Positions 14,217 through 38,000 of a DNA stretch of 64,000 bases are shown here, in pieces. Source of the DNA: Actinoallomurus purpureus (GTDB lineage Bacteria > Actinomycetota > Actinomycetes > Streptosporangiales > Streptosporangiaceae); assembly GCF_024055795.1 (NCBI RefSeq), contig NZ_JAMXMY010000028.1, forward strand, positions 1 to 64,000, written 5' to 3'. Under the pieces are notes generated by a model. It was not told the DNA's origin. It saw only the letters and a program-made list of their open reading frames with translations, and did not search any database. Every line of letters starts with the position of its first letter. Within the stretch, counting starts at the first letter, position 1. The translations under genes were made by a program, and so were the position numbers.

Positions 14217-17200
14217 TCAGGACACCGGGATCAGCCGCCACTGCTGGCTGGCGCCGCCGTCCGGGGTGTTCTGCTGAACGCCCGCACCCGGATCCTTACG
14301 CTGCTGCCAGATGTCGACCGCGAGCCCGCTGTGCCCGTTGGTCAGCGTGTACGCGCCGCCCGGCGCGGGTGTCAGCTGCCACTGCTGGTTCGCCCCGCCG
14401 TTGTCGGTCCACTGGTCCAGGTCGGTCGCCGGCTCGGTGGACGCCGCCGGGACGTCGAGGACCTTGCCGCTGTTGACGTTGACCAGGGCGTAGCGGGATC
14501 CGGCCGGCTTGAGCCGCCACTGCTGGTTCGACCCGCCGTTGTCGGTCCACTGCACGACCTTGCCGCCGTCGTCACGCGACTGCCCTGCGACGTCCATCAC
14601 CAGCCCGCTACCGACGTTCTGCAGCCGGTACGTCGCGCCCGCCGTCGGGACCGGCACCAGTTCCCATCGCTGGCTCGCCGCGCCGGACCCGGGGTTCTGC
14701 ACGACCGCCGCGCCATCGTCCTTCGAACCGCCCCGGACGTCGGCAGTCCTGCCGCTGTCCCGGTTCGTGAGCGTGTAGTGGCCGTCGCCGGTCGGGACGA
14801 AACGCCACTGCTCACGGTCCGACCGCGTGTCGGCGCGCTGCTCCAGCTGCGCGCCGGTCGCCCCGGACGGTGACGCGAGGACCTTGCCGCCCGCACCGAC
14901 GACCTCCAGGTAGCCGGTGCCGTGGCCCTCCAGGTGCCACTGCTGGGACGCGGCTCCGGAGTCGGCGGCCTGCGCGATCTTCGTGCCGTCGGCGGCGACG
15001 GACAGTGCCTTGCCGCTGCCGGCGTTCACGAGCTTGTAGGCCGTGCCGGCGGTGGCGTTCTGCCCCGGCGTCACCTTGAGGTCGTCGAACTGGGCGTTCA
15101 GCCATCCCGCGCCGGGGATCTGCTTGTAGATCGCCGCGCCGGAGGCCAGCAGGTCGACCGGCCCGTCGCCGGCCGTGCGGATCTGCAACTGCAGCGGCCG
15201 GATGTCCCCGCCGGGGATCGTCGTCTTCACCTCGACCGTCTGCGGCGTGTCGCTCAGCTGGACGGCCTGACCGCCGACGTCGCTCTGGCCGTTGTAGAGG
15301 TTGAGGTAGACGTTCCCCTTGCCCTGGAGCGTGATGCTCGTCTTGTACGAGGTGCCCTGCGCGAGCCCGGTCGGGGTGAACTGGATCCAGGTGTTCTGTT
15401 TCGCGTCGTCCATCTTCCAGTGGACCGCGCTCTTGCCGTCCGGTGTGGTCGCCTTCTCGACCGTCCCGCTCACGTCGCCGTCGAGGGAGTACGGCCCGTT
15501 CCAGTCCAGGTCGCCGGTCGGCTCGGTGACGAGGTCGCCGCCGACGTTCCCGCCGTCGCCGACGCCGACCGCCAGGCCGGCCGGTCCTGCGGCGTAGGCG
15601 GAGTCGTGCGCGGTGCCGACCTGCCTGCCGTCGATCGCCGCCGTGATCGCGTCGCCCTGGAAGGTGAGCGCGAGCCGGTGCCAGCTGACGGGGCCGAGGG
15701 CCGCGACCTTGCCCGAGGCGAGCGTCGTCAGCCCGCCCCCAGTGTCGCCGCGCACGATCGACCAGTCGCCCGCGTCGGTGACCCGCAGGTAGTACGCGTC
15801 GATGTGGCCGACCTCCCAGTAGTCGCGCCCGCCGTACCGGCCCAGGAGCTCCACCGAACCGGTCTGCTCCAGCATGACGTCGGCGCTGACCGTGTAGTTC
15901 GTCCACGTGCCGTCGCCGATCAGGCCGTACGGCGTCGCCGCGTTGTCATGCCAGACGATCGGCTTGACCGACGACATCTGGCGGGCGCACTTGCCCGCCC
16001 GTCCGGCGCCACAGCGGACGATCTCGAAGGAGCCGTGCTGGGGGGCAAGGTAGCCGGGGATCGCGCCGGTCCGCGACCGGTCGAAGGTGTCGGAGTACGG
16101 CAGTCCGAAGCCCGCCGACGGCCCCGACGTCGCGGTGCCCTTGCCCTGGCCGGTCGTGGTCGTCAGCGTGTAGACGCGGCCCGGCTTCAGCGTCACCGTG
16201 TAGGTCCCGCCGGCCGGCGTGACGTCGGCGACGTGCGCGAAGTCGTCCGCGGCGTTCTTCGAGGCCAGGTCGGTGGACCAGACGTGGACCGCCCCGGTCG
16301 ACAGTCCGCCCGTGACGGTGAAGGTGACGGTCTGGTCGGCGGCGGCGCGTGTCGTCTCGACGACGGTGCTGTAGTCCCGGTGGTTCGGCGACTTCAGCGT
16401 GACGTAGCTGCCGTTGGCGCGGTCGCCGCCGAGCAGGCCGCTGGCGCTGTCGACGTACGCCCAGCCCGGCTGGGTGAACTGGGTGGTGTGGGCGGTCACC
16501 CACGCCTGCTTGCCGATCGCGAACCGGCCCGACCACGGCTGGTCGTCCACGGTCAGCGCGGTCGTCTGGAAGGGCAGGCCGGGCGGCAGCGCCGCGACCA
16601 GCGGCCAGTTGATGAACGAGGTCATCCGGCCGTCGACGTATCCCAGGTTGATCGCGCGGGCCATCGAAGGTGCGCCGTTGTCGTAGTCCTGGGAGCCGTT
16701 CTCGCTGGCCCAGATCGGCTTGCCGACGTTCTTGGCGGCGTCAGGGGTGTCGCAGGTGTTCGCGCTGCCGCCGTCGCCGCCCTCGCAGGGGTAGTGCGCG
16801 CCGACGACGTCCACGGCGGCGCCGAACTTCGGGTCGGCGGCGATGGCGTCGGCGACGTCCCAGCCGGAGTCGGCGGCCACGACCTTGGTCGCGTAGCCGT
16901 TCGCGCGCAGGGCCGTGTGGAGACTCTCGTACCAGGCCTTGTCGAAGCCGTTCTCGTTCCAGCCGCCGAGGTAGTCGATCGGCAGGTGGTGCGTCTTCGC
17001 GCAGCCGAGCCACTTCATCAGGTAGTCGACCATGTCCTGGGTCCAGAAGCTGCCCTTGCCGATCCAGCCGGGCGCGCCCCAGGACAGCGCGGCCAGCTTG
17101 ATGTCCGGGTTGCGCTTCTTGGCCTGCTCCATCAGCCACCACTCGTAGCCGCGGTCGCAGTTCAGGTCGTCGGGCGTGTGCATGTGGCTGGGCTCGGCGC

Positions 17201-17510
17201 CGTCGGTGGAGTTCATGTCCCCGCCGATCTCGACCTTCAGGATCTGCAGGGAGGCGCCGTAACCGGGCTTGAACAGGTAGTCGAGGATCCGGCTGCGCTG
17301 GGGTTCGGGGTAGTCCAGCAGCAGCCGCGAGTTGCCGCCGCCGCCGCTGATGGCGCCGAGCCCGTCGAAGGTCCGGCCGCCCTTCGTCCCGTCCACGGTG
17401 ACGGCCGTGCCGGTCACCGCCCGCGCGGACGCCGCGGGCGCGACGACAGAGGCGACGGAGACGAAGAGGGCGAGCAGCGCGAGCAGGACACCGCTACGGT
17501 GTTTCAGCAT
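14217..17510 (-). CDS. secreted GH59 galactosylceramidase-like glycosidase with ricin-B lectin tail
   Basis: 1097 residues. Signal peptide 1-30, then a GH59 TIM-barrel (about 40-400) closely following the galactocerebrosidase pattern: FDGLGAISGGGGNSRLL, LKVEIGGDMNSTDG and LSWGAPGWIGKG. The acid/base is Glu186 in WNENG and the nucleophile Glu270 in WASENG. Next come beta-sandwich/lectin-like domains, a carbohydrate-binding-type module (about 690-830), and two ricin-B trefoils with repeated Q-x-W boxes to the end. Predicted reaction: removal of beta-galactose from lipids or glycans outside the cell. The ATG at 17510 follows GAGGTGAT, placed across the stop of the upstream glycosidase gene. Confidence 0.88.
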   Translation of the reverse strand: MLKHRSGVLLALLALFVSVASVVAPAASARAVTGTAVTVDGTKGGRTFDGLGAISGGGGNSRLLLDYPEPQRSRILDYLFKPGYGASLQILKVEIGGDMNSTDGAEPSHMHTPDDLNCDRGYEWWLMEQAKKRNPDIKLAALSWGAPGWIGKGSFWTQDMVDYLMKWLGCAKTHHLPIDYLGGWNENGFDKAWYESLHTALRANGYATKVVAADSGWDVADAIAADPKFGAAVDVVGAHYPCEGGDGGSANTCDTPDAAKNVGKPIWASENGSQDYDNGAPSMARAINLGYVDGRMTSFINWPLVAALPPGLPFQTTALTVDDQPWSGRFAIGKQAWVTAHTTQFTQPGWAYVDSASGLLGGDRANGSYVTLKSPNHRDYSTVVETTRAAADQTVTFTVTGGLSTGAVHVWSTDLASKNAADDFAHVADVTPAGGTYTVTLKPGRVYTLTTTTGQGKGTATSGPSAGFGLPYSDTFDRSRTGAIPGYLAPQHGSFEIVRCGAGRAGKCARQMSSVKPIVWHDNAATPYGLIGDGTWTNYTVSADVMLEQTGSVELLGRYGGRDYWEVGHIDAYYLRVTDAGDWSIVRGDTGGGLTTLASGKVAALGPVSWHRLALTFQGDAITAAIDGRQVGTAHDSAYAAGPAGLAVGVGDGGNVGGDLVTEPTGDLDWNGPYSLDGDVSGTVEKATTPDGKSAVHWKMDDAKQNTWIQFTPTGLAQGTSYKTSITLQGKGNVYLNLYNGQSDVGGQAVQLSDTPQTVEVKTTIPGGDIRPLQLQIRTAGDGPVDLLASGAAIYKQIPGAGWLNAQFDDLKVTPGQNATAGTAYKLVNAGSGKALSVAADGTKIAQAADSGAASQQWHLEGHGTGYLEVVGAGGKVLASPSGATGAQLEQRADTRSDREQWRFVPTGDGHYTLTNRDSGRTADVRGGSKDDGAAVVQNPGSGAASQRWELVPVPTAGATYRLQNVGSGLVMDVAGQSRDDGGKVVQWTDNGGSNQQWRLKPAGSRYALVNVNSGKVLDVPAASTEPATDLDQWTDNGGANQQWQLTPAPGGAYTLTNGHSGLAVDIWQQRKDPGAGVQQNTPDGGASQQWRLIPVS

Positions 17511-17515
17511 GATCA

Positions 17516-20044
17516 TCACCTCGTGAAGGCCGCGACGGCGGCGTTCCAGCCGAAGCCCTGGCGGTCGAGACCGCTGGAGCCGAGCGGATAGGGCCAGGCG
17601 GGATCGGCGCCCGCGATGTCGGCGTTCTTCTGCGTCACCTTGAACTCCTTCGACAGCGGGGTGGCGGCGACCTCCGCGGCGATCGAGTCGCGCATCGCGC
17701 CCCGGGCGGCGTGCACGCCGTGCCGCGCCGCCGAGTACTCCGCGAGGTACTCCCACAAGAGCCAGCTCGCGCCGTTCTGGTACCAGCCGGCCGGCTCACC
17801 GAGCCCGATGACCTTGCCGGTCTTCGGGTCGTTGGTCAGCGTCAGGAACTCGCTCGGCGGGACGGCTCCGCCGTCCTCCTTGGCGAGCACCTTCATCCCG
17901 TACGGTGTCCGCTCCTGCGCGGCGAAGGTCCGCCGCACCATCGTGTCGGTGAGCAGCGGCCGGCCGAACAGGTACAGCGACAGGGCGTCGCCGGCCAGGA
18001 CGTCCGGGGACTTGAAGTCCTTGGTCGACAGCCAGCGCACGTAACCGAGGTGGTCGTCGTACAGCCTGCGGTAGACGCCGGTCGCGGCGGTGATCTCCGC
18101 GTCGCCGACGTCCGCGCCGAGACTCTTGGCGGCGCGCAGCGCGACGACGTACAGGCCCTGGTCGTACGCGTTGACCGCCCCGGTCGGGAACAGGTAGCCG
18201 TCCAGCCAGGAGTCGGGGGTGATCTGGAAGCCGGCGTTGTCGACCGGCCCGGCGGTGACGAACGCGCCGCCGCTCACCTGGTGGGCCCGGATGTAGGACA
18301 GGACGAGGTTCGCCGTCGCGGTGTCCTTGACCGGCAGCCCCCACGTCGTCGCGTCGTGGTACATCCGGATCAGGTAGTACAGGCCGCTCTCGTCGCCGAA
18401 GAACGGCCCGCCGCCGGTGACGGGCGTGTGCCCGGCCTCGCCGCCCGACCTCGGGATCGCGCGGGTGAACTGCGCGAGCAGTTCCTTCTCGGTGTCCTTG
18501 GCGTACGGCGTGCCGTCGAGGCCGAGCGTGGTCCAGAAGCTGTCGCGCATGTACGTCGTTGCGCCGAAGTGGGCGTACTTCTGGTTGGGTGCGAGCGCCT
18601 TGACCCCGCTCGCCGTCGTCATCCGCGCCCAGTAGGCCGTCATCCGGCCGATGGTCGCGAACTCGTCCGCGGCGACCCGGCGCAGCGCCGCGGCGGAGGC
18701 GGCCTTCCCCCAGGCGGGCATCGTCCGGCCCGCCGTGCTCAGCCCGAGCGCCTCGGCGGTCGCCAGCTGAGCGCCGAGCGCGAGCCCGTACGACCCGGCG
18801 GCCGACCGGTAGAACACGCTCCGGAAGGACCGCGTCTGCCCGTCGCCGAGCACGATCGGATCGGCCTCCGTCCCGATCTGCGGGGCGGCCAGCCGGGAGC
18901 CGTCGATGACCAGGTGCGGCGCGGAGTACCCCGGCAGCGGCTCGTCCCACGTGGCGGCGCCGGCCACCCCGTAGGTGTAGGTCCCGTCGGAGGCGCCGAG
19001 GGCCGGAACCGGCGAGTCCAGCAGCGCGTCGGCCGGATTCGGGCTCTCGTACGACGTCGTCTCGCCGCCGGTCCACAGCGGCCGGCCGACCTTGAAGTCG
19101 GTGTACGGGGTGTACCAGTAGACGACCGGGCCACCGCTGGTCGCGGTCCGCACCTGCGCGTCGATCACGTTGGGGGCGACGAACCGGTAGGTCTCCGACC
19201 GCGTCACGGTGGTGGAGCCGATCTTGTCGGTGGCGCCGGAGAGGGTCAGCGTCGCCGCCGCCGGGTCGTAGTTCACCGTGGTGTAGCGGTTGGCGAGCCG
19301 GTTCGCGTCGGTGACGGGCTGCCGGGTGACCGCCCGCACCGAGGTGTTCCAGGCGAGCAGGTTCACATCGCCCGCGGCGGAGGTGCGGATCTGGAACTGC
19401 GGCGTCCGCGTGTGCTCGGGGATCGGCACGTCGAGGGTCAGCGTCTGCGGCTGCGACGTGAGCGTCACCGGCGTGCCGCCGACGTCGCGGGCGCCGTCGT
19501 AGACGTTGAGGTACACCGTGCCGGTGCCCTGCAGCGTCACCGTCGCCCGGTACGTCGTGCCGACCTTGGCGTCGGCGACCGGCACCTCGATCCAGGTGTT
19601 GTTCTCCGCGCCCGGGAGGGTCCAGCGGACGGCGGAGGCCCCGTCCGGCGCGGTGGCCTTCGTGACCGCTCCGCCGCCGGAGCCGGGGCCGCCCCAGTCG
19701 AGGTCATCGGTCGAATGCCCGAGCAGGTCGTCGCCGGTCGGTTGGTTGAGGCTGGTGCCGGGGACGGCCGTCAGGTCGTACTTGCCGGTCATGCCACGGG
19801 TGGTGACGAGCCGGGTGCCGTCATAGATCTCGGCGCGGTAGCCGCCGGTCCCGTCGCCCGCGACGGCGACGTGGAGGGCGTCGGCCGGACCGTACGACCG
19901 GGCGGCGGGCTGCGAGGCGGGCGTCGTGGAGGCGGGGGCGGGGGCGGGGGCCGCGTGTGCCGCGCTACCAGTGCCGATGATGAGGATGGTCCCCATGGCG
20001 ATCGCCATGGGCGTCGCGCCGTAAAGGCGCGGCGGTCTGGGCAT
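17516..20044 (-). CDS. secreted six-hairpin glycosidase-like protein
   Basis: 842 residues. A signal peptide (MPRPPRLYGATPMAIAMG... to AAHA) is followed by an N-terminal beta-sandwich region, a carbohydrate-binding-type module that is also present in the downstream GH59 protein, and a C-terminal alpha/alpha-barrel (about 400-842). Visible stretches are FGATTYMRDSFWTTLG, GGPFFGDESGLYYLIRMYHD, GFQITPDSWLDG and PAGWYQNGASWLLWEYL. The barrel resembles six-hairpin glycosidases, but I cannot assign a GH family or catalytic acid. The ATG at 20044 follows GGAG by seven bases. It is first gene of the operon; its stop overlaps the region in front of GH59. Confidence 0.78.
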   Translation of the reverse strand: MPRPPRLYGATPMAIAMGTILIIGTGSAAHAAPAPAPASTTPASQPAARSYGPADALHVAVAGDGTGGYRAEIYDGTRLVTTRGMTGKYDLTAVPGTSLNQPTGDDLLGHSTDDLDWGGPGSGGGAVTKATAPDGASAVRWTLPGAENNTWIEVPVADAKVGTTYRATVTLQGTGTVYLNVYDGARDVGGTPVTLTSQPQTLTLDVPIPEHTRTPQFQIRTSAAGDVNLLAWNTSVRAVTRQPVTDANRLANRYTTVNYDPAAATLTLSGATDKIGSTTVTRSETYRFVAPNVIDAQVRTATSGGPVVYWYTPYTDFKVGRPLWTGGETTSYESPNPADALLDSPVPALGASDGTYTYGVAGAATWDEPLPGYSAPHLVIDGSRLAAPQIGTEADPIVLGDGQTRSFRSVFYRSAAGSYGLALGAQLATAEALGLSTAGRTMPAWGKAASAAALRRVAADEFATIGRMTAYWARMTTASGVKALAPNQKYAHFGATTYMRDSFWTTLGLDGTPYAKDTEKELLAQFTRAIPRSGGEAGHTPVTGGGPFFGDESGLYYLIRMYHDATTWGLPVKDTATANLVLSYIRAHQVSGGAFVTAGPVDNAGFQITPDSWLDGYLFPTGAVNAYDQGLYVVALRAAKSLGADVGDAEITAATGVYRRLYDDHLGYVRWLSTKDFKSPDVLAGDALSLYLFGRPLLTDTMVRRTFAAQERTPYGMKVLAKEDGGAVPPSEFLTLTNDPKTGKVIGLGEPAGWYQNGASWLLWEYLAEYSAARHGVHAARGAMRDSIAAEVAATPLSKEFKVTQKNADIAGADPAWPYPLGSSGLDRQGFGWNAAVAAFTR

Positions 20045-20087
20045 GCAATTCTCCAGGGCCACAGTGGTTTCGGGCGGGGGCACCGAT

Positions 20088-20099
20088 GACAACGTTGTC
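20088..20099. promoter_or_regulatory. LacI-family operator before the glycosidase operon
   Basis: GACAACGTTGTC is a perfect 12-bp palindrome centred 50 bp upstream of the first start codon. It has the central CG step and half-site typical of LacI/GalR operators that control actinomycete sugar-hydrolase genes. The cognate LacI regulator is not in the window. Inference: the operon is repressed until a saccharide inducer is present. Confidence 0.7.
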
Positions 20100-20220
20100 G
20101 CGGTGACGTGAGTCTGAGTGGCTCTGGTGACTGATGTCAAGAGTTGTTGCTTTTTGTGGCTTTTACGCCGAGCTGTCGGAGTCCGAGCCTCCGCGCGCAG
20201 TCGTCACGCCGTGAAGGGGG

Positions 20221-22836
20221 TCATGCAGTGAAGGGGGTCATCGGCGGCAGGGGAAGAGCCGTCTCGCCGCCCTGGCGGGCGAGCCGGCGGAAGAAGCCCA
20301 GAATCCCGGCCAGCCCGGTCGACAGAGAGGCGGCACCGGCCCCACCTGGATCCTTGACGAAGACCGGGTGGTCGACCGGACCGGCGCTGCGCAGCAGCAT
20401 CTGCACGGCGACGGCGCGTGCGGCGTCCCAGCGCCGCGGATCCCCGTCGTGAACGGCGAGATCGATGAGGGCGTCGCCGATGCCGGCCGCGCCGCAGCAC
20501 TGGTCGAGCACGCCGATCCGGGGCAGGGAGAGCTCCATCGCCGCGCCGGCCTCCCTGGCGAGGTCGGTCAGAGCCGGGTCGTCGAGCGCCGCGCCCGTGT
20601 GGAGCAGCGTGCGCGCGATGCCGGCCAGGCCCCGGCACCAGGAGAAGGCGAGAGGCGGCGCGGATCCTTCGCGCGCCCGCCGTACCCATGATCCGGCATA
20701 CTCGGACAGCCGCTCGGCGCGCTTGGCGGCCTCCGTCAGCAGACGCTGGTCGCCGGTGCGCTCACCGACACTGATCAGCAGTTCGATCGCGCCCGCGTCG
20801 CCGCGCGCCAGCCCCGCGTAAGGGTCGACAGGGTCCCGATCGCGGGGCCTGTCGCCGTCGGCCGTCGAGCCGAGTCCACCGTCCTCCATGACGGACTCCA
20901 CGCACCGACGGACGACGGCACGATGAGCGGGGTCACCGTCCTGCTCCGACAGCAGAAGGTGGCCGATCCCGACACCGGCGGCCCCGGCGATCAGGTCGAG
21001 CCCTTCCGGCTCCCACTCCGCATCCGGGATGCGGGCGCCGAGGTGACCGTCGGGAAGCTCGATGCCGTGGTCGCGCGCCCGGCTCAGGAAGACGTCGATA
21101 CCCGTCCGGCCGTGGAACAACCCCGGCGGCAGGTGAGGTGCGGCGTGCGCGGTGGCTGCCGCAAGATCGTGCAGGGAATCCGCGACACCCGGCTCGCCCA
21201 GGTGCTCCAGGAGCTCGAGGCCGATGCCCGCCATCCCGCGGTGGACCTCGGCGCTGCGCGGCCCCAGAGTGCCGGTCAGGATTCCGCGCGCCTGGCCGAG
21301 CAGATCGGCGAGAAGGTTCCCGGCGACGTCCGCGGCGAGTTCGGGGGTGACGCTCGGCGGCGCGGGCAGGAACCCGACCCGTTTCACCTTCTCCTCGCTC
21401 GGGGGCCGCGCGGAGATCTCTTCCGCCGCGAGCCGCCGCAGTGCGCGCCGGGCGGTGTCGTCGCCGCCGAGCAGGTCCACGATGATGCTGATCATCCCGG
21501 TCGGTTCCTCGCCGTAGGCGAACCGGATCGTCTGGAGCGCGCGCCGGCGGGGCAGCTGGACGTCGTCTCCCAGCGTGACCGGGCGCAGGTACGACGTCGC
21601 GAACAGCAGCGTCATCGCGAGGGCGTGAAGATCATCGGTGTCCCGCGGCGGCTCGCCGCGCCGCTGCCGCGGCGGCGCGTAGCCCTCGGTCCCTCCGGGA
21701 ATGTGCAGGCCGTCGTAGCTCGCCACCCCGAAGTCGATAACGCTGACCCGGCCGCGGTCGATCACCACGTTCCTCGGCGTGAGGTCGCGCATGACGATGC
21801 CGCGCGCATGAAGATCGAGGAGAATCTCAGCAAGTCGCCTACCGAGCCGTTCGAGGGAACGCCCGTCGCCGGCACCATGATGCGACCCGAGCGGATACGG
21901 GCCGTTACGGGCGACGTCCTCGGCGAGATTGATCGGGCCGACGTCAGAGGTCACCAAGAACTCGTCCTGGCCGTGCCGGAAGTGATCCAGAAATCGCGGA
22001 ACACCGGGGCGGCCTTCGAGGATTTGCAGGACACGGCGTTCGTTGCGCAGGCGCATCCGGATGTCGCCCGAGGCCGCGTGTTCGTCCACCAGAGCGCGCG
22101 CCTGTTTGACCACGACGTTCATCCCATCGCGCTGATCGACGGCGCGATAGACGTTGCCGCGCGCGGATTCGTAGATCCCCGCGACGACCCGGTAGTGGTG
22201 GCCGAGAACCGTCGGTTCCGTCAGAGCGGTCTCTTCATCCGCACGCCGGCCGGTGAACGGATCGACGGCCCAGGACGGCTGCTCGTACCGAAGACCGGCA
22301 AGCCCCTCGAACTCTTCGCCGCCGGGCCCGTCGATCCGGGCGACGAACCGTCCCCGCGCGCCGGAATCCTCTGGCTGCTTGAAAGGACCGTAGCGGTAAT
22401 ACACGGGTGCGTCCTGGTCCACCCGTCGGTCGCTGAGCACTCGCGGACCCTGGTGGCCGCGCAGGAGCTCGGCCAGCTCAAGGCCCAGCTCACGGAGGCG
22501 TCGCTGGTCCGGATAGATCGTGAACGCCTTGCCGACGGTCGCTGGAGAGTCGTACCCGTTGTTCAACCTGTCGAGCACCCGGCGCGAGCGCGCGAGCTTG
22601 AACACACACCCCGCAGCGAGCAACCGGGGAAGAAGTCTCTCCACCAGCGCGGCGAAGGCCGCCGACCGGGAGGAGACATGCAGTTTCCAGCCGTGCTCGG
22701 GCAACGGGGCACCGTCGGGAAATACCGTCAGCCACGTCGGTCCGACGTGAACGCTATGGCCGGTCCGCGCATGCTCCCTGACGATTTTTTCGATGGCGTC
22801 GGAGTCTCTTCCCTCCATGTCAGACACCACTTTCAT
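20221..22836 (-). CDS. lanL: class III/IV lanthipeptide synthetase (lyase-kinase-cyclase), zinc-ligand type
   Basis: 871 residues in three domains. A SpvC-like phospho-lyase region spans about 25-190. A Ser/Thr kinase domain (about 215-460) has VVVKQA (Lys244), the catalytic loop MRDLTPRN (Asp351, Asn356) and VIDFG (Asp368). A LanC-like cyclase (about 500-855) follows. Class III enzymes lack cyclase zinc ligands; here Cys733 in SWCRG and Cys780-Cys781 in DQCCG are present, as in class IV, with the CCG form in place of CHG. Expected chemistry: phosphorylation and elimination of Ser/Thr in a leader-bearing peptide, then cyclisation. It lies 30 bp downstream of the precursor gene on the same strand. 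The ribosome site is weak, so the exact start is uncertain. Confidence 0.9.
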   Translation of the reverse strand: MKVVSDMEGRDSDAIEKIVREHARTGHSVHVGPTWLTVFPDGAPLPEHGWKLHVSSRSAAFAALVERLLPRLLAAGCVFKLARSRRVLDRLNNGYDSPATVGKAFTIYPDQRRLRELGLELAELLRGHQGPRVLSDRRVDQDAPVYYRYGPFKQPEDSGARGRFVARIDGPGGEEFEGLAGLRYEQPSWAVDPFTGRRADEETALTEPTVLGHHYRVVAGIYESARGNVYRAVDQRDGMNVVVKQARALVDEHAASGDIRMRLRNERRVLQILEGRPGVPRFLDHFRHGQDEFLVTSDVGPINLAEDVARNGPYPLGSHHGAGDGRSLERLGRRLAEILLDLHARGIVMRDLTPRNVVIDRGRVSVIDFGVASYDGLHIPGGTEGYAPPRQRRGEPPRDTDDLHALAMTLLFATSYLRPVTLGDDVQLPRRRALQTIRFAYGEEPTGMISIIVDLLGGDDTARRALRRLAAEEISARPPSEEKVKRVGFLPAPPSVTPELAADVAGNLLADLLGQARGILTGTLGPRSAEVHRGMAGIGLELLEHLGEPGVADSLHDLAAATAHAAPHLPPGLFHGRTGIDVFLSRARDHGIELPDGHLGARIPDAEWEPEGLDLIAGAAGVGIGHLLLSEQDGDPAHRAVVRRCVESVMEDGGLGSTADGDRPRDRDPVDPYAGLARGDAGAIELLISVGERTGDQRLLTEAAKRAERLSEYAGSWVRRAREGSAPPLAFSWCRGLAGIARTLLHTGAALDDPALTDLAREAGAAMELSLPRIGVLDQCCGAAGIGDALIDLAVHDGDPRRWDAARAVAVQMLLRSAGPVDHPVFVKDPGGAGAASLSTGLAGILGFFRRLARQGGETALPLPPMTPFTA

Positions 22837-22866
22837 AACGCCAGGGGAGCATGCGCGGACCTCTCT

Positions 22867-23070
22867 CTAGGAGTTCGACACGGCCTCGGCGGCGGGCCAG
22901 GTGCTGTCACCGGGCCAGGTGCTGTCACCCGCCATCGACCAGGTGCTGTCACCGGGCCAGGTGCTGTCGCCGTGCGTCCGCCCGGTGAAGCCGACGGCCG
23001 GCTCCATCACGTCGGTTCCCGCTTCGCGGGGCTCCAGATCAAGCAGTTCGGTCAACGTGACTCCCTCCAC
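22867..23070 (-). CDS. cysteine-free RiPP precursor with four GDSTW repeats
   Basis: 67 codons from the GTG at 23070. A TTG at 23055, preceded by GGAGGGA, is the better start and leaves 62 residues beginning (M)TELLDLEPREAGTD. That N-terminus resembles class III lanthipeptide leaders with their LLDLQ-type box. In 67-residue numbering the core holds GDSTW at 34-38, 40-44, 48-52 and 54-58, as GDSTWP-GDSTWSMA-GDSTWP-GDSTWP, then AAEAVSNS. Eight repeat Ser/Thr residues are available for dehydration, but there is no Cys, so no lanthionine or labionin can form. Its position 30 bp upstream of the synthetase makes it the likely substrate. Confidence 0.82.
   Translation of the reverse strand: MEGVTLTELLDLEPREAGTDVMEPAVGFTGRTHGDSTWPGDSTWSMAGDSTWPGDSTWPAAEAVSNS
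22897..22971. repeat. tandem DNA repeats encoding the RiPP core
   Basis: The 12-mer CCAGGTGCTGTC occurs at 22897-22908, 22915-22926, 22939-22950 and 22957-22968 (spacing 18, 24, 18). At a higher level, a 33-bp block at 22897-22929 recurs at 22939-22971 with one mismatch, an offset of 42 bp or exactly 14 codons. The pattern fits a duplication of a GDSTW pair after a first duplication of the single motif. Confidence 0.9.
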
Positions 23071-23409
23071 GTCGGCGCCGTGTGGCGCCTCGTATGATCT
23101 TGCTCTGTATAGCGCACGATGATCTTCGCCTCAATCCTTGATTTCGGAACGCCGATATGCGGTCGTCATCGACCTCCGTCACGGTGACCATCGGCACCCA
23201 AAAACACCCGTGCGCACCGCGCATTCCGCGAAAAAAAGCCGCTACCCCCATCCGAACGCCGGTGCTGTCGGTACACAACCGATGGAATACTCGATCAACG
23301 ACCATGCCGCGCCGGATTCGTTCGATTCCAGCGCCCCGGCGGCGGCGTTCGCCGAACGTTTCCCCCTCGTTCAGCAAACCTGATGGTGAACGCGGTCACG
23401 CGGGCCGCG
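23071..23409. other. intergenic region upstream of the RiPP operon
   Basis: 339 bp, AT-richer than average, between the LysR gene and the precursor; both are read on the minus strand. The operon promoter should lie here. Minus-strand TATACA-like sequence near 23100 is a candidate -10, without a secure -35. Short open frames on either strand lack ribosome sites and were not accepted as genes. Confidence 0.45.
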
Positions 23410-24282
23410 TCAGCCGCGGGACTTGGCGAAGGCCAGGAAGTCGCGGGCGAGGGGAGTGAGGGCGCGGCGGGCGTGCACCAGACCGATGGTCGCGGTGATG
23501 GGCGGCATGAACGACCGGACCGCGACGCCGTCGACGGCCTCGACCTGGTTGCGGTACCAGAGCAGGGAGCCGCGGCCGGCGCGTACCGAGGGGAGCCAGG
23601 AGCCGCGATCGTCGGACTCGACCGCGGCGACCGGCTCGACGCCGAGGCGGCCCAGTAGCGCGTCGAGCTCGGCCCGCCGGGGACCGCCGCGCGCGGGCAT
23701 TATCAACCGCATGCCCCCGAGCGCGGCGATCGGGACCGGCTCGCGGATGTTGAGGGCGGGCGGCGAGATCAGGACGATCTCCCGCTGCTCGATGGGGTGC
23801 GCGGCGAGGTCCCCGGGCACCGGCAGGTCGGTCAGGGCGAGGTCGGCGCGGCCGTCCCTGATGACCGCGCCGATCGCGTCGCGGCCCTCGCAGCGGATCA
23901 CCCGGACCCGTACGGCCTGCTGGTCGCGGGCGAACTCCGGCAGGAGGCGCGCGGTCAGCTCCGGCTCGAGGGTCAGGGTCGAGGCGACCCGCAGCTCCCC
24001 CGCCCTCCCGCCCGCGCGGCCACCGGGAGGGACGGAGGAGACCGCCGTGATGGCGTCGACGGCGCGCAGAGCGTCGCGGGCGTACCGCACGATCTGCTCA
24101 CCGGTGTCGGTGAGCGCGACGCCGCGGCCGACGCGCGCGAACAGCTCGACGCCGAGCTCCCGCTCCAGGTCCCGGATCGCCCGCGACAGCGCGGGCTGCG
24201 CGACGAAGAGAGCCTGCGCCGCCGCGGTCATCGTCCCGTGGTCGGCTGTCGCGACGACATAGCGCAGCTGCCGCAGATTCAT
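23410..24282 (-). CDS. LysR-family transcriptional regulator
   Basis: 290 residues. The N-terminal winged helix-turn-helix is MNLRQLRYVVATADHGTMTAAAQALFVAQPALSRAIRDLE, the canonical LysR layout, followed by a substrate-binding domain with VRVIRCEGRD and LALTDLPVPG. The ATG at 24282 is preferred; an upstream ATG at 24300 adds six residues. It is read in the same direction as the RiPP genes, but 340 bp separate it from the precursor, so control of that operon is possible and not shown. The effector is unknown. Confidence 0.9.
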   Translation of the reverse strand: MNLRQLRYVVATADHGTMTAAAQALFVAQPALSRAIRDLERELGVELFARVGRGVALTDTGEQIVRYARDALRAVDAITAVSSVPPGGRAGGRAGELRVASTLTLEPELTARLLPEFARDQQAVRVRVIRCEGRDAIGAVIRDGRADLALTDLPVPGDLAAHPIEQREIVLISPPALNIREPVPIAALGGMRLIMPARGGPRRAELDALLGRLGVEPVAAVESDDRGSWLPSVRAGRGSLLWYRNQVEAVDGVAVRSFMPPITATIGLVHARRALTPLARDFLAFAKSRG

Positions 24283-36720: not shown

Positions 36721-36791
36721 TTGACTTCCTCCCCCTTCTGAAGAAAGGGGGATTCCCATCGGCCTTGTGGCCGATCCGGCCTTTAGGCCGG
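36721..36791 (-). ncRNA. predicted omega RNA scaffold of copy B
   Basis: Mirror image of the copy C scaffold: hairpins at 36776-36791, 36758-36775 and 36731-36751 (minus strand), ending GAGGAAGTCAA. The guide would start at 36720 and read ATCGCGCATGGCCCGATCCT on the minus strand. Function is inferred from known TnpB systems. Confidence 0.5.
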
Positions 36792-38000
36792 GCGCCTCAC
36801 GGCGCGGGTTTCCTGTTTCAGCGCCGGCTGCGGAAGGGAGGACCCTTGCCGTCTGACACCAGCTCCACAGGCATCACCAGGGGTTTGCCTGGCTACGGCT
36901 CGACCAGCCGCAACGATGTTCTTGGCCGCGTTGATGTCCCGGTCATGCCGGGTGCGGCAGCCCGGACACGTCCAGTGCCGGGTGGAAAGGCTCAGCTTGG
37001 CGAGCAGGTGCCCACAAGCCGAGCAGGTCTTGGAAGACGGATACCAGCGATCGATCACCACGAGCGTGCGCCCGGTCCGTTCGGCCTTGTACTCCAGCTG
37101 CCGCCGGAACTCCCCCCACCCCGCATCGGAGATCACCCGCGCCAGCTTCCGGTTCTTCACCATGTTTTTGACCGCGAGGTCTTCGATCACGATGACATCC
37201 GCTCTGCGCACCAGGTTGGCGCTGACGCGGTGCAGGAAGTCGGCGCGGGCGTTACGGACCTTGCGGTGAGCGCGGGCCACCTTGGCCTTGGCCTTGCGCC
37301 GGTTGGCGCTCCCGCGCTCGCGGCGGGCCATGCGCCGCTGGTAGCGGGCGAGGTTGCGGGCCTTGCGCTCCAGATGGCGGGGGTTGGCGATGCGTTCCCC
37401 GTCGGAGGTGACCGCGAAGTCCTTGATCCCCAGATCGACGCCGATGGCGTGCCCGGCCTCGTCCATGGGGTCGGGGGCGTCGGCATCGACGGCGAAGGTC
37501 ACGTACCAGCGGCCGTCCGGGTCGCGGGAGATGACGACCATGGTGGGGTCGAGCGTGGCGGGGTCGACGTCCTCGAAAGACCATACGAACCTCAGCGGCG
37601 TGGTGGTCTTGGCCATGGACAACTCGCCGTTCTTCATACGGAACGCCGAGCGGGTGTAGTGCGCGGTCTGCCGGGAGTTGCGGTTCTTAAAACGCGGATA
37701 CTTCGCACGGCCGGCGAAGAAGTTCGCGAACGCCGCGTGCTGGTGCCGCAGCGTCTGCTGCAACGGAACCGACGACACCTCCGACAGAAACGCCAGGTCC
37801 TCGGTCTTCTTCCATCCGGTCAACGCGGCGTCGGTCTGCTTGTAGGAGGTCTTCTCGCCCCGCTGGTGGTAGGCCGTGTGGCGTTCGGTGAGGGTTTTGT
37901 TCCACACCAGGCGCACACACCCGAACGTGCGGCTGAAAACCGCCGCTTGTTCGGGGCCGGGGTAGGCCCGGCACTTGTACGCCGTCCGCATGACCGACAC
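36783..38000 (-). CDS. tnpB: TnpB RNA-guided nuclease, copy B
   Basis: 405 residues (from the GTG/ATG region at 38000; ATG at 37991 is the alternative). It has an N-terminal OrfB HTH (SRTFGCVRLVWNKTLTER), and RuvC-like catalytic residues Asp189 in GVDLGIKDF, Glu273 in VIEDLAV and Asp355 in RHDRDINAAKN are all present. The C4 zinc finger CSACG...CPGC is intact. The basic linker ARYQRRMARRERGSANRRKAKAK between RuvC-I and RuvC-II is full length. This copy looks catalytically complete. TnpB proteins cut DNA next to a TAM using the omega RNA. Confidence 0.92.
   Translation of the reverse strand: MSVMRTAYKCRAYPGPEQAAVFSRTFGCVRLVWNKTLTERHTAYHQRGEKTSYKQTDAALTGWKKTEDLAFLSEVSSVPLQQTLRHQHAAFANFFAGRAKYPRFKNRNSRQTAHYTRSAFRMKNGELSMAKTTTPLRFVWSFEDVDPATLDPTMVVISRDPDGRWYVTFAVDADAPDPMDEAGHAIGVDLGIKDFAVTSDGERIANPRHLERKARNLARYQRRMARRERGSANRRKAKAKVARAHRKVRNARADFLHRVSANLVRRADVIVIEDLAVKNMVKNRKLARVISDAGWGEFRRQLEYKAERTGRTLVVIDRWYPSSKTCSACGHLLAKLSLSTRHWTCPGCRTRHDRDINAAKNIVAAGRAVARQTPGDACGAGVRRQGSSLPQPALKQETRAVRRPA

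Follow-up and report, generated by a model that had tools for sequence, protein, structure and literature searches.

The closest described relatives of the locus reported here are the class IV lanthipeptide synthetases (LanL). VenL is one such enzyme, and CuvL we take to be another. With SgbL and CuvL the present locus shares the lyase-kinase-LanC domain order, the zinc cysteines and an EPRxAG-type leader. It differs from them in three respects: the substrate lacks Cys, Arg takes the place of the cyclase's acid His in two of three members, and the synthetases score 600-622 bits against the class IV model NF038150, where the cut-off is 650. Substrates that lack Cys have been described in class II, two reports naming some cyanotins, mixed LanM/LanKC clusters and the prochlorosin type (PMC7268733, PMC11251773). 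The Cys-free precursors encoded beside LanM resemble our case in pairing a dehydratase-cyclase enzyme with a Cys-free substrate (PMC7268733, in its accessible part), but they belong to class II. In that survey, any ORF whose estimated core held no Cys was dropped. Therefore, class IV cases of this kind would not have been listed, and Cys-free systems can be overlooked in surveys filtered in this way.

Three further systems bear comparison. Noursin and its synthetase LanKC-Hbt likewise involve a LanC-containing synthetase and one crosslink made without a thiol; however, that system is class III, its precursor still has one Cys and the crosslink uses His (PMC10206099, accessible part), whereas the DS[ST]W motif described below has no His and one of our three precursors contains none at all. 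Eukaryotic LanCL proteins share the LanC fold and zinc site and, as far as the available text of PMC9934072 goes, add glutathione to dehydroamino acids in proteins and so act on such residues without a substrate Cys. They differ in that the acid His is kept and glutathione provides the thiol, and a parallel with the present locus is conjecture. Microviridin chemistry is of another kind, that of ATP-grasp enzymes. Nevertheless, tandem-core microviridins also carry several core units behind one leader (PMC5934393). Among the papers listed by our literature searches, which lay largely outside subscription journals, none described a DS[ST]W repeat or a class IV precursor lacking Cys.

We analysed a window of 64,000 nucleotides, this being the whole stretch at positions 1 to 64,000 of contig NZ_JAMXMY010000028.1 of Actinoallomurus purpureus. 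The gene pair under study comprises the following features.

22867..23055, minus strand: lanA-like gene for a precursor of 62 aa without Cys; the start is probably TTG, with a GTG at 23070 as the alternative
23062..23068, minus strand: Shine-Dalgarno-like GGAGGGA, read from the sequence; GAGGGAGT[C/T]A also lies 5′ of the TTG in two Nonomuraea relatives (G179, G189)
22987..23055, minus strand: class IV-type leader MTELLDLEPREAGTDVMEPAVGF; the same leader type occurs in Cys-containing class IV precursors
22897..22971, minus strand: four (G)DSTW units, with copies at 22957-22971, 22939-22953, 22915-22929 and 22897-22911
20221..22836, minus strand: LanL-like synthetase, 871 aa, with RamC_N lyase (18-202), kinase and LANC_like cyclase (529-851)

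Translation of the minus-strand ORF at 22867-23070, which reads VEGVTLTELLDLEPREAGTDVMEPAVGFTGRTHGDSTWPGDSTWSMAGDSTWPGDSTWPAAEAVSNS, bears out the initial annotation in that it contains DSTW four times and Cys not once; 30 bp indeed separate the stop of the precursor gene from the synthetase ATG (22836). TTG at 23055 is the more likely start than GTG at 23070, because GGAGGGA stands 6 bases upstream and because both relatives have a TTG after GAGGGAGT[C/T]A. The TTG of G189 is immediately preceded by an ATG in the same frame. From this probable start the precursor peptide is MTELLDLEPREAGTDVMEPAVGFTGRTHGDSTWPGDSTWSMAGDSTWPGDSTWPAAEAVSNS, with all four DSTW units and no Cys. The repeat is not due to chance, since a 4-mer occurring four times was reached in 0/20000 shuffles of the peptide. 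Moreover, a GD-S-TW-type codon pattern had 10 matches genome-wide, four of them within 75 bp at this locus; the reversed control pattern had 8. The core, GDSTWPGDSTWSMAGDSTWPGDSTWPAAEAVSNS, has a calculated mass of 3512.44 and holds 11 Ser/Thr. A promoter scan of 20000-23500 found no sigma-70-type site. Because the precursor has no Cys, a thioether ring within the peptide is impossible, and the earlier claim that neither (methyl)lanthionine nor labionin can form within the peptide alone holds. The Cys through which a lanthipeptide acquires these rings is absent from the window precursor and, read from the TTG start, from both relatives, although a Cys might be supplied in trans.

The initial annotation had called the leader class III-like. 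We assign the leader, LEPREAGTDVMEP, to the class IV (LanL) type instead, which it shares with class IV precursors. NCBIfam scores and tree placement make the enzyme, too, class IV-like and not class III-like. Lyase, kinase and LANC_like domains occur in one protein (Pfam RamC_N 4.7e-46, Pkinase 3.3e-11, LANC_like 4.6e-17). Against NF038150 the window synthetase scored 613.5 bits, below the 650-bit equivalog cut-off, and those of the two relatives 600.3 and 621.8; five Cys-type enzymes tested scored 651.4-743.7. Against the class III (LanKC) model NF038151 it reached 343.3 bits compared with a cut-off of 575, and the zinc cysteines are present. Therefore the window synthetase is, by sequence, nearest to class IV LanL, though under the model cut-off. 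Four further full-length NF038150-type class IV model matches in the A. purpureus genome lie far under the cut-off, at 361-378 bits, and are taken as putative class III-like synthetases. We would expect the system to behave as class IV up to dehydration; it departs from class IV in the model cut-off and in the cyclase acid, and on its own it cannot give a lanthipeptide.

When 341 genomes of the family were searched, 51 synthetase matches turned up in 46 of them, and two of the matches were close: Nonomuraea sp. NEAU-A123 (G179, 74%) and Nonomuraea zeae (G189, 73%). Both carry the same lanA-lanL pair. The recurrence of precursor and synthetase for which the initial annotation proposed a search is thus found, with the same leader, DS[ST]W units and gene pair in two Nonomuraea genomes. 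The N. zeae precursor reads MSDLLTLEPREAGTDVLEPAVHFPETVKAQDGRLQA followed by five DSSWSLA-type units without Cys. That of NEAU-A123 reads MNNLLALEPREAGTNVLEPTIGFLETVRAQDGRLQIDSTWT and then stops, with a single unit (DSTWT) and no His; its longest frame, from a GTG further upstream, has one Cys 5′ of the leader, and there is none from the TTG start. Counted by the motif DS[ST]W itself, with degenerate ends such as DSGLS in N. zeae uncounted, the three precursors hold 10 units (four in the window, five in N. zeae, one in NEAU-A123). A genome scan with two short peptide patterns returned five loci, two of which were the Nonomuraea pairs. In a sample of 394 genomes of the class, the window synthetase was the sole match at E<=1e-190.

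The other class IV loci that were read in the family, 28 of 48 non-DSTW matches, are of the Cys type. All 28 (L013-L039, 27 loci, and G333:C422) have a precursor alongside that holds one Cys or more behind a leader containing PR, in most cases as EPRxAG. Two Streptomyces loci from a GTDB scan have Cys precursors too. At G333:C422 (L046/L071) two consecutive class IV precursor genes near one synthetase share the same leader and have diverged Cys cores. In a tree of 32 synthetases, rooted at its midpoint without a class III outgroup, the three DSTW enzymes form one clade (100/100), which together with nine Cys-type enzymes makes up a group of 12 rows (98/96). Most simply, a Cys-containing core would have been replaced once behind a conserved leader.

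We therefore favour, with moderate confidence, a rare two-gene system derived from class IV, whose own substrate is Cys-free with D-S-[S/T]-W units that are dehydrated without forming thioether rings. The leader would dock on the synthetase, the kinase would phosphorylate Ser/Thr in each unit and the lyase would eliminate phosphate to leave Asp-Dha-Dhb/Dha-Trp units; the window peptide would yield Asp-Dha-Dhb-Trp and the N. zeae peptide Asp-Dha-Dha-Trp. What results would be one polydehydrated peptide free of thioethers or, if the precursor is cut, several short copies, and the cyclase domain might be kept for folding, domain communication or some further step. That the precursors hold 1, 4 and 5 units points to modification unit by unit, and perhaps to the release of several short products; no protease gene was noticed beside the pair. 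The system may be a source of short repeated dehydropeptides. As a naturally occurring class IV enzyme that has its own Cys-free substrate, the synthetase makes it testable whether nature can use the dehydratase half of LanL alone. The explanations weighed against this dehydration reading below are not mutually exclusive, and the chances we give them need not add up to one.

The residues of the dehydratase half bear on an alternative in which the units are phosphorylated and the phosphate is not eliminated, giving a phosphopeptide. The kinase residues are present: K244, D351, N356 and D368 are invariant in 30/30 aligned enzymes, and E266 is found in 28/30 with Asp in the other 2. In ThurKC, eight lyase residues are reported as conserved and tested in the accessible part of PMC10604976. 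Six of them, K65, H67, K94, K117, D152 and R163, correspond to K51, H53, K80, K103, D136 and R148 (ThurKC numbers mapped by counting, offset 3), each invariant in 30/30. The remaining two, K108 and R191, are unmatched, which would suit a phosphopeptide. However, these columns hold Gly94 and Ala180 in 30/30 rows; therefore the loss of both matches is a class IV trait. We infer an active lyase from six of the eight ThurKC residues, and consider the phosphopeptide very improbable. Of the products that the initial annotation listed, a stable phosphopeptide is consequently less likely, most known lyase residues being in place (6/8).

The key codons of the cyclase half are as follows.

20803..20805, minus strand: codon of Arg678, which aligns with the His that is the catalytic acid of LanC (LanCL1 His219)
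20635..20637, minus strand: codon of Cys734, predicted zinc ligand (SWCRG)
20494..20499, minus strand: codons of Cys780-Cys781, predicted zinc ligands (QCCG)

The predicted zinc columns of C734, C780 and C781 hold Cys in 30/30 aligned enzymes, all three DSTW members included. The AHGxAG motif is AHG in N. zeae and in 27/27 comparison enzymes, and ARG in the window and NEAU-A123; the class IV acid His is thus Arg678 in the window, likewise Arg in NEAU-A123, and kept in N. zeae. A profile alignment places the His of LanCL1 and of CuvL in the Arg678 column. This His (LanCL1 His219) is the acid that protonates the enolate, according to the available text of PMC9934072. The codons in the column are CGC (window), CGC (NEAU-A123) and CAC (N. 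zeae); therefore the residue either changed twice independently, or changed once and later reverted.

Relaxed selection on the cyclase was considered and set aside, there being no sign of it beyond the change of the acid His. For the DSTW clade, the ratio of cyclase to kinase distance is 1.18-1.77, within the range of other clades (1.06-3.22 for the Cys-type sisters and 1.01-2.06 for SgbL-like enzymes, taken over eight of nine Cys-type sister rows and 11 of 18 SgbL-like rows, with pairs of lyase identity >=0.97 excluded). Because the His is kept in N. zeae, the zinc cysteines are kept in 3/3 and this ratio is not raised, the cyclase may still be doing chemistry. The retained zinc site would speak for some remaining use of the cyclase, and the changed acid against ordinary thia-Michael addition. 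The combination of a changed cyclase acid with a Cys-free substrate makes it testable what a LanC domain does without its usual nucleophile.

Actinobacteria use mycothiol. We regard as somewhat unlikely, though worth bearing in mind, that the synthetase has left thioether chemistry and that its altered zinc cyclase joins Dha/Dhb of the DS[ST]W units to something that is not a Cys of the peptide, be it mycothiol or another external thiol, or the neighbouring Trp. Such chemistry would define a RiPP class without intramolecular lanthionine; with a thiol it would be a bacterial conjugation resembling that of LanCL. Taken separately, the thiol branch, in which mycothiol or free Cys would be added from outside in the manner of LanCL, seems to us unlikely. 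It would account for the zinc cysteines being kept in 3/3 while the substrate Cys is absent, and for a cyclase evolving no faster than in the sister clades. The modelled cyclase domain (mean pLDDT 85.5) has its best solved match in CuvL (8car/8cav), followed by MadC, LanCL2 and LanCL1 among others, and LanCL1-3 act intermolecularly in the accessible account of PMC9934072. However, catalysis suffered when the acid His was mutated in NisC, SpaC, LctM, ProcM, LanCL1 and LanCL2 according to the same part of that source, and this residue is Arg in 2/3 here.

The other branch of this idea, in which the core itself provides a nucleophile that is not a thiol (Trp indole, Asp or His) and this adds to Dha/Dhb to give a carbon- or nitrogen-linked ring, we consider distinctly unlikely. 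We know of no LanC-catalysed addition of Trp. In its favour, the Ser-Ser/Thr pair stands between Asp and Trp in units from each of the three lineages, with linkers that differ. A LanC-type domain can be associated with a non-thiol nucleophile, since the noursin subgroup of class III makes His-to-butyrine crosslinks (PMC10206099, accessible part). However, with its single unit and no His, the NEAU-A123 precursor makes a crosslink between units impossible there. If the NEAU-A123 gene is functional, its single unit argues against an obligatory inter-unit crosslink.

The condition of the Nonomuraea precursors raises the possibility that the cluster is decaying, its Cys core lost and the repeats being slippage products without function. 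Unit number varies, the NEAU-A123 gene has an early stop and could be decaying, and each of the two Nonomuraea has, in frame beyond the stop, what looks like the remnant of a unit (DSTRP, DGTRP). Moreover, leader dN/dS over 23 codons was 0.68 and 0.44 in two pairs and 3.2 between the two Nonomuraea, so that dN/dS gives no sign of purifying selection on these 23 codons. However, pairwise dN/dS of LanL is 0.33-0.43 in all three pairs (0.39-0.48 for the cyclase part); therefore the enzyme is maintained under purifying selection. The gene pair also persists in two genera. Taken together, we give decay only a small chance.

Lastly among the alternatives, the DSTW peptide might be a partner or decoy, the true substrate being a Cys-containing peptide encoded elsewhere and either joined to it in trans or processed by the same enzyme. 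The retained zinc cyclase would then have a use, and a Cys-free beside a Cys-containing peptide has been described in mixed LanM/LanKC clusters (PMC7268733, PMC11251773, in their accessible parts). The initial annotation had itself named a separate Cys-containing precursor as the possible true substrate. However, a leader-only search found no second precursor with this leader in the A. purpureus genome, the assembly of which is 97.9% complete in 52 contigs; the next match had E = 5.2. As a control, the same leader query recovered the true Cys precursors in 8/10 Cys-type sister genomes, at E 5e-4 to 1.2; it missed those of G187 and G190, and a Cys precursor with an equally divergent leader would escape it. 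Nor did the PRx[AV][GS] motif, combined with reading, disclose another leader-like small ORF among 399 in the window, or a second leader-like peptide in ~20 kb around the pairs of NEAU-A123 (153 small ORFs) and N. zeae (122). We therefore judge a partner or decoy role to be quite improbable.

DSTW-like patterns elsewhere were followed at both DNA and protein level. A two-unit DNA pattern had matches in 47/341 family genomes, the window and N. zeae included. Five of the other loci were read and rejected, four g55 loci being palindrome-like and the one in G155 an unrelated tandem repeat; the remainder were judged by the match alone. In the four g55 genomes (L141-L144) the palindrome-like stretch lies between MarR-like and DoxX-like genes and translates as DS[TR]WPGDSSW without a leader. 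The G155 locus (L145, G155:C67:77742-77891) repeats a 23-nt stretch in tandem, which gives six consecutive pattern matches, and is apparently no precursor gene. At the protein level, a whole-precursor search of 345 genomes of the order gave matches in 30 genomes at E<=0.01, comprising the three members, Cys-type precursors and others. Among 13 loci translated from these other matches, that of G255 is a Cys-type precursor and 12 have no leader.

At the DNA level, the window (10-38 kb) matches both Nonomuraea stretches over lanA-lanL only, and at the protein level the surroundings beyond lanA-lanL share only one repeat-type domain, at 34-39%. In both Nonomuraea a class I methyltransferase gene (Methyltransf_23) lies directly 3′ of lanL (L040, L041), and the A. 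purpureus genome has a methyltransferase gene 76% identical on another contig (G000:C33:213205-213981; L080, L081). This gene at first looked like a co-inherited tailoring enzyme, being found in 3/3 DSTW genomes compared with 0/9 sisters (E<=1e-30). The candidate was dropped, as genes of at least 72% identity occur in 7/341 genomes, four of them without a DSTW synthetase. A gene that looks MFS-like by eye adjoins the methyltransferase in 4/5 loci read outside the Nonomuraea lanA-lanL loci (A. purpureus itself, G001, G140 and G253; not G006). The lanA neighbour in N. zeae is 78% identical to the MFS-like gene of A. purpureus, which had no match within 20 kb around lanA of NEAU-A123. A functional link of the methyltransferase or the MFS-like gene to the DSTW pair is a weak lead.

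Directly downstream of lanL in the window are two long ORFs on the minus strand (17516-20140 and 14217-17756) that look secreted by eye. No counterpart of either was seen beside lanL in Nonomuraea, and the ORF at 17516-20140 had no Pfam match at E<=0.001. Further away in the window, at 36783-38000 on the minus strand, lies an ORF whose translation resembles, by eye, a TnpB-type transposon protein.
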